Shown one piece after another: positions 3,044 through 52,056 of a DNA stretch of 64,000 nucleotides (its first letter is position 1; each line of letters begins with the position of its first letter). The translations under genes and the position numbers were made by a program. Where the stretch lies: positions 62,001-126,000 of the forward strand of contig CAMUML010000001.1 in assembly GCA_947089855.1 (NCBI GenBank), written 5' to 3'. This stretch comes from an uncultured Eubacterium sp. (GTDB taxonomy: Bacteria > Bacillota > Clostridia > Lachnospirales > Lachnospiraceae). Below the pieces are notes generated by a model that made no database searches, was not told the DNA's origin, and saw nothing but the letters and a program-made list of their open reading frames with translations.

Positions 3044-3509
3044 GATGGCCGCACAGATCAGTGCGGATTTTCAAGGGGAGGAAATTCTTGCAGTTGGGAT
3101 TCTGCGGGGCGGCGCTTATTTTTGCACAGAGCTGACAAAGCGCATCACCGTACCAGTCATTCTGGATTTTATCGAGGCATCTAGCTATGGGGATGGCACG
3201 TGTTCCAGCGGGCAGGTTAAGATTACAAAAGATCTAGATGAGGATGCATCAGGAAAAAATGTAGTTGTGATCGAAGATATTATTGATACCGGCAGAACAC
3301 TCAGCCTGCTTATGGAGAATCTAAAAAGCCGTAATCCAAAATGCTTGAAACTGTGTACACTTTTGGATAAGCCGCAGCGGCGTGTTGTGGAAGTACACGT
3401 GGATTATAATGGGTTTCAGATTCCAAACAAATTTGTTGTGGGATATGGGATGGATTATGCGCAAAGATACAGAAATCTTCCTTATATTGGAGTTGTAGAG
3501 TTTGAGTAG
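2985..3509 (+). CDS. hpt: Hypoxanthine phosphoribosyltransferase
   Basis: The 174-residue purine salvage enzyme transfers phosphoribosyl from PRPP to hypoxanthine and guanine. The PRPP-binding loop EDIIDTGRT is at residues 97-105, and the C-terminal NKFVVGYGMDY segment is typical of the family. An in-frame ATG exists upstream at 2931, but the ATG at 2985 has a strong GGAGG at 2972-2976 and starts at the usual family N-terminus (MDGQIHVMI), so 2985 was chosen. It overlaps the end of tilS by 59 bases and lies 14 bases before ftsH, which suggests one operon. The tilS-hpt-ftsH order is conserved in Firmicutes. Confidence 0.95.
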   Translation: MDGQIHVMIPEEEVNARIAEMAAQISADFQGEEILAVGILRGGAYFCTELTKRITVPVILDFIEASSYGDGTCSSGQVKITKDLDEDASGKNVVVIEDIIDTGRTLSLLMENLKSRNPKCLKLCTLLDKPQRRVVEVHVDYNGFQIPNKFVVGYGMDYAQRYRNLPYIGVVEFE

Positions 3510-5629: not shown

Positions 5630-6766
5630 ATGCAGATCTATGTTGTCAAAGAAGGCGACACTGTTATGAAGATCGCCCAAGAGCAGGGGGTACCTGCGGA
5701 TACTATTATTTATAACAACCAGCTGGAAGACCCCTACCCGCTGGTAGTAGGACAGGCACTGCTGCTGACCAAAGGGGAGGGTGCGCTGGTCAGGCAGGCT
5801 GTGGAAACCGCAGGCTACGCATATACTTATATCAATCCGGATACGTTAGGGCAGACGCTGCCGTATTTAAGCAAATTATGTGTATTTTCTTATGGGTTTA
5901 CAGCAGAAGGCGATCTGGTGCCGCCGCAAAATGATGATTCGTTTATGATAGATATGGCCACCGCAAATGGGACAGCACCTATTTTAACAGTTACGCCGTT
6001 TGGCGCAGATGGCAAATTCAATAATTATCTTATCAGTGCAGTTACCAATGATATGGATGTACAACAGAAGTTTATCGGGCAGCTAACGGAGAAAGTGCAG
6101 CAAAAAGGGTTCCAGGGCGTGGATATTGACTTTGAATATATTCTGCCGCAAGACCGTGTGCCATTTGCGGAATTTGTTGCAAATGTACGGGAAGCCATCA
6201 ATACGCTGGGGTATCCAGTATCGGTGGCACTGGCTCCGAAAACGTCGGATAACCAAAAAGGGGTTTTGTATGAAGGCAAAGATTATGGCTTGCTGGGCGA
6301 AGCCGCGGACAATGTACTGCTAATGACTTATGAGTGGGGTTATACGTATGGGCCGCCAATGGCGGTTGCGCCGCTTCATATGGTACGCAAAGTAGTAGAA
6401 TATGCGCTGACCCGTATTCCTGCCGAAAAAGTCAATCTAGGCATCCCAAATTATGGGTACGACTGGACGCTGCCATTTGTCCAGGGCGTTTCCAGCGCCA
6501 AGGCAATCGGAAATGTGCAGGCAGTCCAGATTGCGGCGGAAAACGGTGCGCAGATCCAATTTGACGAAGTATCGCAGTCCCCATATTTCCGCTATACCAA
6601 AGATGGGCGGGAGCACGAGGTCTGGTTCGAGGATGTGCGCAGTATGCAGGCAAAATTTAACCTGGTGGAAGAATATGGGCTGCGCGGCATGGGATATTGG
6701 CAGATTATGCGCTTGTTCCGGGCAAATTGGATGTTGCTGGCAGACCAGTTTTGGATACGGCATTAA
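5630..6766 (+). CDS. LysM / glycoside hydrolase family 18 protein (SleL/YaaH type)
   Basis: The 378-residue protein begins with one LysM domain (residues 2-45: QIYVVKEGDTVMKIAQEQG onward) and continues with a GH18 chitinase-like barrel. The DxDxE catalytic motif reads DIDFE with the acid Glu at residue 169; MTYEW and the C-terminal GYW strand also fit. Relatives (SleL, YaaH, YdhD) are N-acetylglucosaminidases that trim spore cortex peptidoglycan during germination, which matches a spore former. No signal peptide is visible, as is usual for forespore-made SleL proteins. Only one LysM is present where Bacillus SleL has two. The start has a weak AGGATG-type ribosome site, so expression may be low or may depend on a sporulation sigma factor. 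Confidence 0.85.
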   Translation: MQIYVVKEGDTVMKIAQEQGVPADTIIYNNQLEDPYPLVVGQALLLTKGEGALVRQAVETAGYAYTYINPDTLGQTLPYLSKLCVFSYGFTAEGDLVPPQNDDSFMIDMATANGTAPILTVTPFGADGKFNNYLISAVTNDMDVQQKFIGQLTEKVQQKGFQGVDIDFEYILPQDRVPFAEFVANVREAINTLGYPVSVALAPKTSDNQKGVLYEGKDYGLLGEAADNVLLMTYEWGYTYGPPMAVAPLHMVRKVVEYALTRIPAEKVNLGIPNYGYDWTLPFVQGVSSAKAIGNVQAVQIAAENGAQIQFDEVSQSPYFRYTKDGREHEVWFEDVRSMQAKFNLVEEYGLRGMGYWQIMRLFRANWMLLADQFWIRH

Positions 6767-6881
6767 ATAAGCATAGAAAAATCTGTTACAAAAATCTTCT
6801 TTTATTTTTCATCTCCTATGGATTATTTTGGAAATATGGTCTATACTGAATGCAGGTGGTTTCCGGATTTACAAGCCAGAC

Positions 6882-6983
6882 TATACTGCAGGCCGCTAGA
6901 ATGCACAGTAATGTAACAAAAAAAGTGCCTGGCTGGCGGTCTGCAGCCGGGTTATACTGTAAATTTAACCGATGTGCAGTATA
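6882..6983 (+). repeat. Family A dispersed repeat, copy A1
   Basis: An about 100-base element made of two dyads. The first has arms close to CTGCAGGCCGCCAG and CTGGCGGTCTGCAG; the second is TATACTG...CAGTATA around TAAATTTAACCG. Other copies lie at 15341-15440 (minus), 24565-24643, 47264-47365 and, as only the second dyad, 17601-17631. It carries no gene and sits in the 334-base gap between the GH18 and GH13 genes. Confidence 0.85.
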
Positions 6984-6999
6984 TTCTGAAAAACACGAG

Positions 7000-7074
7000 A
7001 GTTTGCCAAATAACGCCGGCTCACGAGCGTTGTTATCTTGAGTCATGTGGTAAACTTTATCGCTCGTGAGTATA
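7000..7074 (+). repeat. Family B dispersed repeat, copy B1
   Basis: A 75-base element starting AGTTTGCCAAATAACGC and ending CTCGTGAGTATA, with a perfect 10-bp internal inverted repeat (CTCACGAGCG / CGCTCGTGAG). A second full copy lies at 17630-17704 in the opposite orientation, and a 31-base end at 22598-22628. In both full copies it lies beside a family A dyad, so A and B may form one composite mobile unit. Confidence 0.8.
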
Positions 7075-43368: not shown

Positions 43369-43425
43369 GTTTGCCCATGATACAATCCATATCGTTATGC
43401 AATAAGTAAAAGAATGGAGGCAAAA

Positions 43426-44055
43426 ATGGAATTACAAAAGAAGTATGGGTATATGCGGGTGTCTACCAAAGAGCAGAATGAGGATAGGCAGCGGCTGGCG
43501 TTGTTGGAGGCAGGTGTCCCAAAGGGGCAGATTTTTATGGATAAACAATCTGGAAAAGATTTTAACCGGTCACAGTATCAGCGCCTTTTACGCAGGCTGG
43601 ATGAACATTCCGTGCTGTTTGTCAAATCCATCGACCGGCTGGGAAGGAATTATTCAGATTTAAATGAGCAGTGGCGCATTATTACAAAAGAAAAAGGGGC
43701 GGATATTGTGGTGATCGACATGCCGCTGCTGGATACCAGGAGGGAGAAAAACCTGCTTGGTACGTTTATCAGCGATATTGTATTGGCACTGTTTAGCTAT
43801 GTAGCGGAAAATGAACGTACCAATATAAAACAGCGGCAGGCGGAAGGCATAGCGGCAGCAAAGGCAAAAGGCGTGCAGTTTGGCAGGCCGCCGCTTCCGC
43901 TGCCGGATAATTTCCATAAAATGCACCAGGATTGGCGCAGTGGGGAAATTTCAATGGAGGAAGCCGCACAGGCGTGCGGGATGAGGCCGAAAACATTTTA
44001 CAGCAAAGCGGTGCAGTGTGAAAAAGATGGGATTGTTATACAATGTGGTAAGTAA
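43426..44055 (+). CDS. Small serine recombinase (Hin/Gin-size), likely flagellin-switch invertase
   Basis: The 209-residue protein has the serine recombinase catalytic domain with the nucleophile in MRVSTKEQ (Ser13), the arginines of SIDRLGRN (Arg71, Arg74), the long E-helix ENERTNIKQRQAEGIAAAKA, the GVQFGRPP hinge, and a C-terminal helix-turn-helix (ISMEEAAQACGMRPKTFY). Size and layout fit invertases and resolvases rather than large integrases. ATG 43426 follows ATGGAGG. Ten bases after its stop begins the 18-bp inverted repeat pair that brackets a flagellar promoter, so its likely job is to invert that segment. No transposon ends lie around it. Confidence 0.85.
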   Translation: MELQKKYGYMRVSTKEQNEDRQRLALLEAGVPKGQIFMDKQSGKDFNRSQYQRLLRRLDEHSVLFVKSIDRLGRNYSDLNEQWRIITKEKGADIVVIDMPLLDTRREKNLLGTFISDIVLALFSYVAENERTNIKQRQAEGIAAAKAKGVQFGRPPLPLPDNFHKMHQDWRSGEISMEEAAQACGMRPKTFYSKAVQCEKDGIVIQCGK

Positions 44056-44065
44056 AATAATCTGT

Positions 44066-44203
44066 AAAAGTATACTTTTTCAGAATACGATAAATGGCCA
44101 AAAAAAATAAAAAAATTGCTAATTAATTACTACTATATCGGCAAAAAATACCAATTATTTAATGATTTGAGGAAAATTTAGTGGACTGAAAAAGTATACT
44201 TTT
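44066..44203. promoter_or_regulatory. Candidate invertible promoter segment bounded by 18-bp inverted repeats
   Basis: The left repeat AAAAGTATACTTTTTCAG (44066-44083) and the right repeat CTGAAAAAGTATACTTTT (44186-44203) are perfect inverted copies around 102 bases. Each has a 14-bp palindromic core centred on TA, as expected for a serine-recombinase crossover site. The enclosed DNA holds one flagellar promoter on the minus strand. Confidence 0.8.
44135..44161 (-). promoter_or_regulatory. Sigma-D/sigma-28 flagellar promoter facing away from flagellin 1
   Basis: On the minus strand TAAA (44161 to 44158), a 15-base spacer and GCCGATAT (44142 to 44135) match the sigma-28 consensus TAAA-N15-GCCGATAA except for the last base. 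It points toward the recombinase 3' end. No similar promoter was found on the plus strand between here and the flagellin start, so flagellin 1 looks unexpressed in this orientation. Confidence 0.82.
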
Positions 44204-44276
44204 TTAGATATTTCTGTGTGAAAAGAAATAGCAAAAAATTAAATGGAAGGATATAACTCAAGGAGGAGATGATAGT

Positions 44277-46265
44277 ATGCAGGTATTGGCGCACAATTTG
44301 CTTTCGCAGTTTACAAACAGGCAGTTAAATGTAACTACGGAAGAAAAAGGGAAAAATACAGAAAAGCTGGCGTCTGGATATAAAATTAACCGGAGTGCGG
44401 ATGATTCTGCGGGATTAGAAATTTCAGAAAATATGCGGTGGCAAATTCGTGGTTTAAGCAGAGGGAAAAGCAATATTAAAGAGGGAATTTCACTTGTAGG
44501 TACGGCAGACGGCGCTCTAGATGAAATGCAAAGTATCTTGCAGCGTGTCAGGGAGCTTTCGGTACAGGCTTATAATGATACGAATACGGAGGCTGACCGT
44601 GATGCGATTCAAAGTGAAGTAGATGATATTTTAAATGAGGTCGACCGGATAGCAGACACGACGACGTTTAATACAAAGCAGTTGCTTAGGGGGAATCCTT
44701 TAGAAAAAATCCGTATATCAGCAGACCGGACAGTTGAAAGGGTAACAACACTTCCGCCAAAGGTAAAGGATTTGCCGGATTGGCTGAAAGATAATATGGA
44801 TCTGAGGTTAGAAGTCCATCCGAACTATACGCAAGCGCAGGATGTAACGGGTACGATGGAACATGTCGATCCAACGACTGGGCAATATCAGTACTATGGA
44901 CCTCAAAATCAATGTCCGCCGGGGTTTGATTTTATGGGTGAGTGGACTCCGACAATTGAAAACAATGTGTCAGCTCAGATGGATTTTCAAGGGCTTATAA
45001 AGCTTCCGCCAACGGTAGCTACTGCTTTAGATTTATATGAGGATATTTACAATTTAGTGGGTACGAAAGTATCATTTCCTTGCGGTACCTGTAATACTGT
45101 GATAAACAGCCTTTCATTTTGGGGTAATGAGGATATGCTTACAGTGCAAGGATTTCAAAATCCATCATGGCAAACGGACCATGAAGGGAAGATCAATTTA
45201 TCAGAAGAGCCGTTTGAATATAATGGTACGACGTATTCGGGGTATTTTGAAGCGGTGCAGGACTTAATCGACCAATATAGCGACAATTACGATAGTTCTA
45301 GTGGTTCCGCACCGGGTGATAATAATGAAAGTGCAGATGTAATAGCTTTGGCCGAGAAAATTGCAGAGGATCTGAGGGATAAGGCATTCGATGTATTGGA
45401 TAGGAAAATTGCACAGACAAACCATTTTGACAGGGTAGTTAAGGGTGATAGTCCATATAGTTTAATAGTTTACGATTATCGGGATGATAGTGCTTTGACG
45501 AATATGCATGCAGCGGACGCTACCGTTAAGACAGAATCTACTGTAATATATAAGACTAAAACCAATCAGCTGATACCAGGGACGGTTATAGAAGCAGAAG
45601 CGCCGATGAAAATTATGTGTGGCGCCCTTAAGTCCAGCTATATAGATATAGAATTATCGGATGCTTCAAGGGACGCGCTTGGATTATCTCCCTATCGGGT
45701 AAACCATTATGATGTGATAGCAACTTACAGTGATGATTATAACAGAAGGATGCTTGAGTGGGAAAGCAGTGCTACACAAAGAATCATCACGGAAGATTAT
45801 ATGGCAGATGTTATAGATCAGCAGATTCCGCCCGTTTATGGTCTAAGAAACGGGGAACGTGTTCTGATTCAGCCAGGGCAGATTACTTTTCGGCAGGAAC
45901 TTCGTACCAGAACCTATACCATCATAGAACATAGCCCTGCGAATCCGCCAATCCCAGGCCCTGATGATGTGTCGATAAAAAGAGTTTATAATCCAGATTC
46001 CCTGTATTTGGTAGACAATGCCATTGATTATGTATCGGATATAAGGTCAAGGCTGGGTGCTATTCAAAACCGTTTGGAATATGCTTACAATTTGAACGCT
46101 GGGACTTCGGAAAACACGCAGGCAGCTGAATCGCGCATTCGGGATACCGATATGGCGGAGGAAATGGTTGGATATGCAAAGCATTCCATTTTAGAACAGG
46201 CGGGGCAGTCGATGTTGGCGCAAGCGAACCAGGTTCCGCAAAGAATACTTAGCCTGTTGAGTTAG
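44277..46265 (+). CDS. Flagellin 1, under the invertible promoter
   Basis: The 662-residue flagellin has the conserved N-terminal D0/D1 helices (TEKLASGYKINRSADDSAGL) and C-terminal D1/D0 (ENTQAAESRIRDTDMAEEMV and SMLAQANQ) around a central region of about 430 residues that I cannot assign. It is divergent at the N-terminus (MQVLAHNLLSQFTNRQLNVT). Filament subunits are exported by the flagellar type III system without a signal peptide, as here. AAGGAGGAG lies before the ATG. Its only recognisable promoter lies reversed in the segment 44066-44203. Confidence 0.9.
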   Translation: MQVLAHNLLSQFTNRQLNVTTEEKGKNTEKLASGYKINRSADDSAGLEISENMRWQIRGLSRGKSNIKEGISLVGTADGALDEMQSILQRVRELSVQAYNDTNTEADRDAIQSEVDDILNEVDRIADTTTFNTKQLLRGNPLEKIRISADRTVERVTTLPPKVKDLPDWLKDNMDLRLEVHPNYTQAQDVTGTMEHVDPTTGQYQYYGPQNQCPPGFDFMGEWTPTIENNVSAQMDFQGLIKLPPTVATALDLYEDIYNLVGTKVSFPCGTCNTVINSLSFWGNEDMLTVQGFQNPSWQTDHEGKINLSEEPFEYNGTTYSGYFEAVQDLIDQYSDNYDSSSGSAPGDNNESADVIALAEKIAEDLRDKAFDVLDRKIAQTNHFDRVVKGDSPYSLIVYDYRDDSALTNMHAADATVKTESTVIYKTKTNQLIPGTVIEAEAPMKIMCGALKSSYIDIELSDASRDALGLSPYRVNHYDVIATYSDDYNRRMLEWESSATQRIITEDYMADVIDQQIPPVYGLRNGERVLIQPGQITFRQELRTRTYTIIEHSPANPPIPGPDDVSIKRVYNPDSLYLVDNAIDYVSDIRSRLGAIQNRLEYAYNLNAGTSENTQAAESRIRDTDMAEEMVGYAKHSILEQAGQSMLAQANQVPQRILSLLS

Positions 46266-46462: not shown

Positions 46463-47128
46463 CTATACTTCTTCAACCGTTAAAGTAATATCCATCCCCA
46501 TCATATTTTTTTTGGTAGAAAATGAAGTATAATCATCTTTATCCAGGGTAAGTGTTTCCGAAAATGTTTTCCCGCCTGCTTTTACGGTAATGGTTACTTT
46601 TTTGCCTTTTACGACTGCCTTATAAGTACCGGAAAATTCTTCCATTTCAAAGGTGCTTTCATTTAGTTTTGAACCTTCTGCAGTACCGTCTTCGTTAAAC
46701 GTGATTGTCATAACGTCCATACTGCCTTGATCCGTACCAGCCGTCCCTTTGTAGGATTTCCCGGCCAGCAGTTCGGAAATATCTTTGGAATTTGTACTGG
46801 AACCAGATTCCTCTTCTACGGTTATTTTGCACTTCAATGTTTTTTTGCTTACCGTTGCTTTTACGATTGCTTTTCCGGCAGCCTTTGCCGTTACTACGCC
46901 TTTGGAAGAAACGGCGGCAATGGATTTATCGGTACTCGACCATTTGATAGCGGCGCCTTTTTTTATATTTTGTACTTTAAGGGTTACCTTTTTGCCGACA
47001 GCCAGAGTGGCTGAGGTTTTGTTTAGCTTTGGGGAAGCAGCCTGGACGTTAGCTGGTGAACCCGCCAGGGAAGCAACGATCAAAGCGGCTGACAGGCATC
47101 CGCAAGAGAATTTTTTGGTAAGTTTCAT
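46463..47128 (-). CDS. Secreted protein with one Ig-like (BIG2) domain
   Basis: The 221-residue protein has a signal peptide (about 1-30, ending SPANVQAAS), one BIG2 domain (about 33-105, LNKTSATLAVGKKVTLKV) and a C-terminal beta-rich domain (about 118-221, GSMDVMTITFNEDGTAEGS) of unknown family. It is probably exported. It lies inside the flagellin locus in the opposite direction. AGGAGG lies ten bases before the ATG. It shares only the Ig-like domain with the protein at 14513-15307. Confidence 0.78.
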   Translation of the reverse strand: MKLTKKFSCGCLSAALIVASLAGSPANVQAASPKLNKTSATLAVGKKVTLKVQNIKKGAAIKWSSTDKSIAAVSSKGVVTAKAAGKAIVKATVSKKTLKCKITVEEESGSSTNSKDISELLAGKSYKGTAGTDQGSMDVMTITFNEDGTAEGSKLNESTFEMEEFSGTYKAVVKGKKVTITVKAGGKTFSETLTLDKDDYTSFSTKKNMMGMDITLTVEEV

Positions 47129-47383: not shown

Positions 47384-47410
47384 TAAGTATTTGTCCACAT
47401 GTACCGATAT
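47384..47410 (+). promoter_or_regulatory. Sigma-D/sigma-28 promoter of flagellin 2
   Basis: TAAG (47384-47387), 15 bases, and ACCGATAT (47403-47410) match the flagellar consensus with two changes. It points toward flagellin 2 and gives a leader of about 305 bases. A second family of boxes was not seen closer to the gene. Confidence 0.72.
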
Positions 47411-50115: not shown

Positions 50116-52056
50116 ATGGTTTTACAGCATAACCTGGAGGCAATGAATGCCCATCGAAGTTTAAATACAACGGCAAAGAAGCAGTCGAAAAGTGCAGAAA
50201 AATTGTCTTCCGGCTATAAGATCAACCGTGCAGCGGACGATGCCGCAGGATTGACGATTAGCGAAGGGATGCGTGCAATGGTCCGCGGGCTGGGCCGTGC
50301 ATCCGATAATACGCAGGATGGGCTTTCGCTTCTGCAGACAGCGGATGGCGCTTTAAACGAAGTCCACAGTATCCTGCACCGGGCGAAGGAACTGTCTGTG
50401 CAGGCAGCAAACGATACCAATACTGAATTGGACCGTGCTGCCATCCAGGGTGAAGTGGATGAGCTTTTAAAGGAAATAAACCGGATTGCAGATACGACGG
50501 AGTTTAATACGTTAAAGTTATTAGACGGCAGCATTGCAGGGGAAGGGGATTCAGCCAGCCCGCTGGTTTCACCCAATGCGGCGGCTGGATCGGCCCGTCT
50601 GCAGGAAGGGATGCGGGATGTAAACAATACTATTATCCGGAATCCGCTTACACAGGCAAGTGCATCTGCAGTATGTACGCCAGGGCAGATAACGAGTGTG
50701 GAAAACGTAGTTGGTAGTGCAGTACCGAAAGCAGTAGGCGCGGTTATCAATTCCCTTTCGGTATTCAATAGCAATGAAGTCAGCGATTCGATAGGTGTGA
50801 GTTTGTATGCAGACGGTTCGTCTACTTTGGCATATGTAGAGTGCCGCTATTCATATGACGGCAGTGGCAGGATCCTTGGACTGCAATTAAACCTTTCCGT
50901 AAATGTCCAGAGCCTGGATTTCGATCCGGCAAATCCGAATAATTTAACGAACGATAGTCGACGGGCTTTGGAAGCTACCATAGCACATGAGATGATGCAT
51001 GCATTTATGGACGACGTCTTTACAAACGGGATGTTGGGTGCAACCCAAGGGATACGGGATAAAAGCAATGCATTCCCAGGATGGTTTAAGGAAGGGATGG
51101 CCCAGGTTGCAGCTGGCGGCTGTTCTAATGACAACGACTGGGTAAATGGCGGGCTGGGGCTTGCGCCAGGTGCATCAGCGGGTACGGTAAGTTCCGTTGT
51201 CCAATCATCAGGCAATAAGCTGTCCAGCGGTACCACTGCTTCCAAATACGGTACCGGCTACTTGGCCTGCATGTACCTTGGGTATCTCGCATCTGGGAAT
51301 ACAACGGTTGATGCGACGAACCTTCGGACAGGGATGAACAATCTTTTGCAGAAGATTAAAGATGGGACGTCCCTTAGCGCTGCGATTAAAGAATTTTCTG
51401 GCGGCAGGTACCGGGGGTTAAGTGATTTTCAGAATAAATTCGGGGATGCGGATTCTGCCCAGTTTGTAAGCCAGTTATTGGCAGCGGTTGGTGGCACTGG
51501 AAATGGTAGTTTGATCAACGGTGACCTGACGAACTCAGATATTTTAACGAGTGCTCCAACAAATAATAGCAAGTATGTACCTGATTTTAGTTCCTATTAT
51601 ACCGTGTCACCGGGGCCGCACCTGCTGAATGACGGGGGCAGCGGCGGATACAGGGACGGAGGCCCAGCTTTGAATTTACAGGTTGGTTCACTGGGGAAAC
51701 AGGGGGTTGCGATCGCGATTTATGATACCCATACAATGGCATTGGGGATTGATGAAATATCCGTTATGAGTTTTGAGGATGCATCGGAAGCAATCTATTC
51801 CTTTGACTATGCGTTGCAAATAGTCTCAGAAAACCGTTCTTCCATCGGGGCTTATATGAACCGTCTGGAGCATACGATAGCAAATGTAGATAATACAGAG
51901 GAAAATACGCAGGCTGCAGAAAGCCGGATCCGTGATACTGATATGGCGGAAGAAATGGTTACCTATTCCACACAAAATATTCTAGCCCAGGCAGGCCAGT
52001 CCATGCTAGCCCAGGCGAACCAGGGCAAACAGGGGATTTTACAGCTTTTGCAGTAA
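50116..52056 (+). CDS. Flagellin 3 with a zinc metalloprotease domain (flagellinolysin-like)
   Basis: The 646-residue flagellin has normal ends (SAEKLSSGYKINRAADDAAG, ENTQAAESRIRDTDMAEEMV) and a middle of about 400 residues that holds a protease motif: ATIAHEMMHAFMDD with zinc ligands His291 and His295 and catalytic Glu292, followed by GWFKEGMAQ with Glu326 as probable third ligand, the gluzincin plan. Flagellinolysins are flagellins of this architecture that assemble into filaments with proteolytic activity. TGGAGG lies before the ATG. Its promoter was not identified; it may be read from the zinc-ribbon gene. Confidence 0.85.
   Translation: MVLQHNLEAMNAHRSLNTTAKKQSKSAEKLSSGYKINRAADDAAGLTISEGMRAMVRGLGRASDNTQDGLSLLQTADGALNEVHSILHRAKELSVQAANDTNTELDRAAIQGEVDELLKEINRIADTTEFNTLKLLDGSIAGEGDSASPLVSPNAAAGSARLQEGMRDVNNTIIRNPLTQASASAVCTPGQITSVENVVGSAVPKAVGAVINSLSVFNSNEVSDSIGVSLYADGSSTLAYVECRYSYDGSGRILGLQLNLSVNVQSLDFDPANPNNLTNDSRRALEATIAHEMMHAFMDDVFTNGMLGATQGIRDKSNAFPGWFKEGMAQVAAGGCSNDNDWVNGGLGLAPGASAGTVSSVVQSSGNKLSSGTTASKYGTGYLACMYLGYLASGNTTVDATNLRTGMNNLLQKIKDGTSLSAAIKEFSGGRYRGLSDFQNKFGDADSAQFVSQLLAAVGGTGNGSLINGDLTNSDILTSAPTNNSKYVPDFSSYYTVSPGPHLLNDGGSGGYRDGGPALNLQVGSLGKQGVAIAIYDTHTMALGIDEISVMSFEDASEAIYSFDYALQIVSENRSSIGAYMNRLEHTIANVDNTEENTQAAESRIRDTDMAEEMVTYSTQNILAQAGQSMLAQANQGKQGILQLLQ

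Follow-up and report, generated by a model that had tools for sequence, protein, structure and literature searches.

A candidate phase-variation module in Lachnospiraceae: a serine recombinase gene, a probably invertible sigma-28 promoter and a flagellin gene

Organization of the locus

We analyzed a 64-kb window (a stretch of 64,000 nucleotides from one contig of an uncultured Eubacterium sp. of the Lachnospiraceae). In this window a small recombinase gene, a promoter enclosed by paired sites and a flagellin gene follow one another directly:

43414-44055, plus strand: small serine recombinase (invertase), ORF of 213 aa in an intact frame
44062-44083, no strand: left recombination site CTGTAAAAGTATACTTTTTCAG, 14-bp core at 44066-44079, crossover AT
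44080-44189, no strand: predicted invertible segment, between both 14-bp site cores
44135-44161, minus strand: sigma-28 (FliA/SigD) type promoter TAAA-N15-GCCGATAT, directed away from flagellin 1 (OFF)
44186-44207, no strand: right recombination site CTGAAAAAGTATACTTTTTTAG, 14-bp core at 44190-44203, crossover AT
44260-44268, plus strand: ribosome-binding site of flagellin 1, sequence AAGGAGGAG
44277-46265, plus strand: flagellin 1, predicted switch target, 662 aa, with Flagellin_N and Flagellin_C domains

An earlier note on this DNA had described a serine recombinase gene of Hin size ending at 44055, perfect 18-bp inverted repeats from 44066 to 44203 around a minus-strand sigma-28 promoter, and a flagellin start just past the right repeat, and our analysis bears out all three. 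The recombinase matches the resolvase catalytic domain (PF00239, 102.4 bits, cut-off 23.3) and ends at that coordinate, the two arms (44066-44083 and 44186-44203) are perfect, inverted and face the segment, and 73 bases separate the right arm from the flagellin start. Both 14-bp site cores read AAAAGTATACTTTT, beginning at 44066 and 44190, 124 bp apart. Beyond the earlier reading, both sites are near-palindromes in their own right, and their crossover core is AT. The pair thus also reads as a direct repeat, and each site is without polarity. Inverted repeats of 18 bp with a gap of at most 300 number 12 in the window, one of them in 43414-46265, and none in 20 shuffled windows.

The perfect TAAA-N15-GCCGATAT motif (no mismatch) has a single copy in the 64 kb, the minus-strand one between the sites, which is directed towards the recombinase gene's 3' end. 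Allowing up to two mismatches gives 17 matches in the 64-kb window against 8.3 expected, and two copies of the looser form TAAR-N15-NCCGATA are present where 0.27 would be expected (a count of two is reached in 4 of 100 shuffles), the second copy lying at 47384, forward, upstream of flagellin 2. This is the well-known sigma-28 promoter motif, and it also stands upstream of flagellins here. The earlier claim that flagellin 1 has no other visible promoter was slightly too strong, since a weak forward sigma-70-like match (9/12) at 44033-44061 could allow some flagellin transcription without inversion.

The recombinase

The recombinase start is likelier at 43426 (209 aa) than at 43414, because GGAGG directly precedes 43426. 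Among solved chains, the nearest are the Sin, gamma-delta and Tn3 resolvases and Gin. The nucleophilic serine and the DRLGR arginines (S17, R75 and R78) are invariant across 24 sequences, and the catalytic serine and arginine positions align with those of Sin and gamma-delta. The predicted fold (mean pLDDT 79.1, pTM 0.55) comprises a catalytic domain, a long E helix (114-151) and C-terminal helices at 167-175, 181-188 and 192-204; the best fold match of this model is 2gm4, a gamma-delta/Hin chimaera.

Relatives of the recombinase were found in 36 of the 61 relatives searched. In separate searches they occurred in 13/13 genus genomes at E <1e-60, in 53 of 397 genomes of the family (1e-75) and in 43 of 391 of the class (1e-60). 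Divergence is greatest at third codon positions (identity 0.41-0.60, compared with 0.85-0.90 at second positions), which shows the gene to be under purifying selection.

Flagellin 1 and the sigma-28 context

Flagellin 1 has full-length relatives at 49% (genome G009) and 53% (G010) identity, and the next sizeable ORF after it (46463-47128) is on the minus strand. In the window, with the segment flipped in silico, the sigma-28 promoter (TAAA) would stand 169 bp from the ATG; for G009 the corresponding distance is 160 bp. Forward sigma-28 matches within 500 nt upstream occur at 10 of 30 genus flagellin loci (two of these loci being the same gene). Eight of these fixed promoters lie 152-182 bp from the start, which in one of the eight (L190) is estimated, and the others lie at 291 and 339 bp. 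In both class and ON geometry, the window promoter therefore agrees with ordinary flagellin promoters, and the genome encodes FliA (266 bits, cut-off 189.6). In a third species, the G010 flagellin relative has a forward sigma-28-type promoter, TAAT-N15-ACCGATAT, at 136 bp, outside the 152-182 bp range, and no site pair was found when looked for at that locus. In the window, an ordinary type of flagellin promoter has been placed in a segment predicted to flip.

Another flagellin of the window, flagellin 3 (50116-52056), contains an HExxH motif, and its full length can be aligned to the flagellinolysin model, at 186.6 bits, slightly below the cut-off of 205; judging by its sequence, it is likely a protease-bearing flagellin.

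A wider family of recombinases with site pairs

We identified 125 distinct recombinase loci, of which 14 with less than 400 nt downstream were dropped. A site pair lies 3' of the gene at 59 of the 111 loci counted, compared with 2/333 shuffled and 3/113 upstream control regions; the same test found no adjacent pair at the other 52. Given these counts and the lack of such repeats in the shuffled windows, a chance origin of the repeat pair was rejected. Of the 13 genus genomes, 6 contain exact AT-core pairs, against 0 in the control.

The core dinucleotides at the 59 loci are GT/AC (41), AT/AT (11), CT/AG (3), AA/TT (1), AC/GT (1) and non-matching (2). Cores are complementary in the inverted sense at 57 of 59 loci, a figure scored without the core, whereas permuting partners gave a mean of 32.2 and a maximum of 43 in 20000 permutations. 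Scoring with the core included, which is biased, gave 58/58. At the two exceptions, L140 and L152, a scoring that favours spacing had chosen complementary pairs; this scoring was kept out of the spacing statistics. Asymmetric cores in inverted array are the requirement for inversion.

A second, class-wide set comprised 25 loci, 3 of which were too short and were dropped. A pair was present at 12 of the remaining 22, with complementary cores in 11 of the 12; one locus, L227, had been chosen by its pair, and the counts without it are 11/21 and 10/11. No sigma-28 match or flagellin was found in the paired loci of this set.

In 44 representatives the site distances form three main groups (123-128, 135-139 and 166-168 bp), and isolated values outside these reach 453. 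A period of 10.55 bp fits best (R 0.70; p 0.0002 against a jitter null), and 38 of the 44 spacings differ by no more than 2 bp from a multiple of 10.5 bp; counting each distance below 180 bp once gives p 0.0024. Clustering the representatives at 85% identity reduced shared ancestry among them but did not remove it. The window spacing of 124 bp corresponds to 11.8 turns, and spacings in the class-wide set are 127, 135-138, 148 and 209.

Segments in both orientations among relatives

Comparison of similar segments yielded 22 pairs, 8 of which have downstream 150-nt flanks at least 75% identical; three of the eight are flipped and five are not. The flipped orthologous pairs, in which the flank is unflipped, are L066/L161, L123/L126 and L140/L151, and a separate comparison added L091/L093, making four. 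The cleanest is L066/L161, where the segment is 97% identical in inverted orientation, the downstream flank is 97% identical and the cores are AT, like those of the window; a consensus promoter faces the gene in L161 only, not in L066. Within the recombinase family, orthologous segments thus exist naturally in both orientations. In genome G005 (C18:29497-29762; L262 and L264), three AT-core sites bound two head-to-head segments in a perfect 268-bp palindrome, which reflects either a duplication produced by recombination without polarity or an assembly that ran through the two orientations in turn.

The strict sigma-28 motif is found in three of the 59 paired segments, those of the window, G008 and G009. 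The window locus is known from one assembly, in reversed orientation, and the other two segments are oriented likewise; each of the three loci retains exactly one segment. In the sister species G009, the recombinase (77%), the sites and the flagellin follow one another as in the window, and the parts are intact. The G008 segment precedes a vWA/Big_2 protein rather than a flagellin. A flagellin lies within 6 kb of the recombinase at 2 of the 125 distinct loci, many of which cover only 1.5 kb on each side. We looked for a flipped form of the window locus, in a genus of 13 genomes and with a record search that may omit entries close to the window's genome, and did not find one.

Interpretation and alternatives

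The site pairs, their cores and spacing, the flipped relatives, the ON distance and the fixed promoter of the G010 relative together make an OFF-state invertible promoter well supported. The recombinase very probably inverts the segment, the inverted form would drive flagellin 1, and the assembled state would be OFF. The earlier proposal of a complete module (invertase, invertible sigma-28 promoter and flagellin, assembled OFF) thus gains support from the pairs at 59 of 111 loci, the related inversions, the ON distance and the G009 locus. A recombinase dimer would bind each palindromic site, and the two sites would synapse over about 12 helical turns; cutting at the AT core, rotation and rejoining would then reverse the promoter. 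With the switch ON, transcription by FliA-RNA polymerase would begin 169 bp upstream of flagellin 1, measured from TAAA to ATG. With the switch OFF, transcripts from this promoter may run antisense to the recombinase gene's 3' end. With a FliA promoter in an invertible segment, the arrangement would act as an AND gate: the flagellar checkpoint must be passed and the switch must be ON.

The locus may once have been a switch and now be locked OFF, with flagellin 1 kept in reserve, silent or weakly expressed. The single reversed orientation seen in all three sigma-28 cassettes is what a locked or biased state would also produce, and the sigma-A-like promoters across the 59 segments also lean this way (21 reversed, 9 forward and 29 unclassified). 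We nevertheless consider it improbable that the switch is locked, since the recombinase frame is intact and under purifying selection, both 18-bp arms are perfect, flagellin 1 retains both terminal domains, and the parts of the orthologous G009 module are intact too. Because an AT core lacks polarity, deletion or duplication could compete with inversion, and the sites might mainly excise or duplicate the segment, so that copy-number change would prevail over clean inversion. The palindromic AT-core sites and the 268-bp palindrome of G005 agree with this. However, L066/L161 invert cleanly with AT cores, the window, G009 and G008 each keep one segment, and the G005 palindrome could come from an assembler walking both orientations; a locus that mainly changes copy number therefore seems to us a minor prospect.

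The position of palindromic sites just past the recombinase gene would also suit paired operators through which the recombinase represses transcription without recombination. Neither the complementary asymmetric cores (GT/AC, CT/AG, AA/TT) nor the flipped orthologous segments could arise in the family without recombination, and on these grounds an operator-only role was rejected; as the catalytic serine and arginine positions are conserved as well, it is very improbable.

Within the preferred reading of an invertible promoter, we offer a broader proposal tentatively and think it somewhat more likely wrong than right. The family would consist of polarity-free, helically phased invertons, in which the loop of about 12 turns between palindromic AT-core sites sets the outcome without an asymmetric core. 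Capture of a sigma-28 promoter would have placed a gate of checkpoint AND phase variation on one flagellin, and the same enzyme would flip further AT-core invertons, such as that on contig C25 described below, in trans. If so, the flagellin antigen and other loci would be shuffled by one enzyme.

Relation to known systems

In Flavonifractor plautii, hin has been described in 2026 with FliA-promoter inversions of about 120 bp at csrA-tldR(-fliC) loci (PMC13418256). As in that description, the invertase gene here is directly upstream of a FliA-promoter region of about 120 bp, predicted to invert, with control of a flagellin isoform. Unlike in the csrA-tldR loci, the window segment stands directly before flagellin 1, which is the first ORF after it, and the locus has no adjacent csrA or tldR. 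We found no CsrA match in the window's genome (89.7% complete). The comparison with Flavonifractor hin rests on the published description. The window locus thus belongs to a broad invertase family, in which it represents a variant lacking csrA and a neighbouring tldR, and the Flavonifractor parallel lowers its novelty relative to the earlier reading. In the open-licence literature we found no report of this module in Lachnospiraceae.

In the Salmonella Hin/hix/fljBA system, a serine invertase flips the promoter of a flagellin operon; hin is inside the invertible segment, the operon encodes FljA, and Fis with an enhancer directs inversion (PMC9368917, PMC3798978, PMC11868660). The window locus resembles this system in combining a serine invertase with a probable promoter flip for a flagellin. 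It differs in that the recombinase gene (ending at 44055) is outside the 124-bp segment, whose left site begins at 44062, and in that no FljA-like gene follows flagellin 1, the next sizeable ORF being on the minus strand.

RecV of Clostridioides difficile is a tyrosine recombinase. The flagellar switch of that species is a 154-bp invertible element with 21-bp inverted repeats upstream of flgB, on which RecV acts in trans (PMC5386303). The window locus would likewise bring about flagellar phase variation in Clostridia through a small invertible element, but it has a serine recombinase next to one flagellin gene rather than RecV and an element upstream of flgB. The same paper names the Mpi invertons of Bacteroides fragilis (PMC5386303). 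These share with the window a serine invertase (by NCBIfam label) and small promoters that are invertible, or in the window predicted to be so; action in trans on several loci may be a further parallel. The window recombinase, however, scores 45.3 bits against the Mpi family model, below the cut-off of 272, and the Mpi site sequence differs from the window sites.

In the gut, the flagellins of Lachnospiraceae are among the main targets of immunity, and a compact switch for one flagellin among several would explain part of variable flagellin display; its state can be read from metagenome reads. The wider family supplies natural invertase/site pairs that differ in their core dinucleotides and are ready for use, and its AT-core members allow a test of what governs the choice of inversion over deletion, the polarity of the core or the geometry of the DNA.

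Other cassettes in the genome and in relatives

The window's genome (G000) has a second AT-core pair (C25:3274-3414, L219), with sites at 3274 and 3401, 127 bp apart, no adjacent recombinase, and an ABC-transporter-like ATPase ORF after it. From its sequence, this pair is a possible trans target of the window recombinase.

Three further cassettes resemble invertible promoters, with sites of the form CTCAAAAAGT-GT/AC-ACTTTTTGAG 128 bp apart (G000:C23:5132-5281, C23:37897-38046 and C56:21430-21579; L215, L216 and L217), and single sites of the GT/AC type occur at the contig ends of C64 and C3. The three cassettes adjoin TnpB/Cas12f-like proteins and have no adjacent recombinase. The proteins at C23:5132 and C56 match PF07282 (cut-off 26.3) with 29.9 and 33.5 bits. 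On visual inspection both seem to lack the acidic RuvC positions, so they are possibly nuclease-dead and TldR-like. Similar stretches follow the TnpB-like ORFs of L215 (about 6670-7000) and L217, and may represent a conserved RNA, which could be the scaffold of a guide RNA. Comparison with Rfam gave no family above its cut-off in L215, L216, L217 or the window. Guide-like matches of the two TnpB-like loci to the window were rejected, as they amounted to a single 14-base match, at chance level.

Cargo of the related cassettes was scanned for families in 47 of 56 cargo ORFs (3 of the 59 cassettes have no ORF in range). In cassettes L089, L134, L107, L147, L091, L093, L117, L113, L051 and L112 it includes an EcoRI-type methylase, a C5 methylase, helicase/restriction-like proteins, acyltransferases, glycosyltransferases and MBOAT proteins, some named by sequence alone. 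Surface proteins are also among the cargo of the wider family. This range suggests that one invertase family may serve many phase-variable functions. The sole viral-contig match to the site-pair pattern is L227, on an IMG/VR contig, with a recombinase at 55%, zinc-ribbon cargo and no flagellin; this cassette adjoins phage-like structural ORFs.
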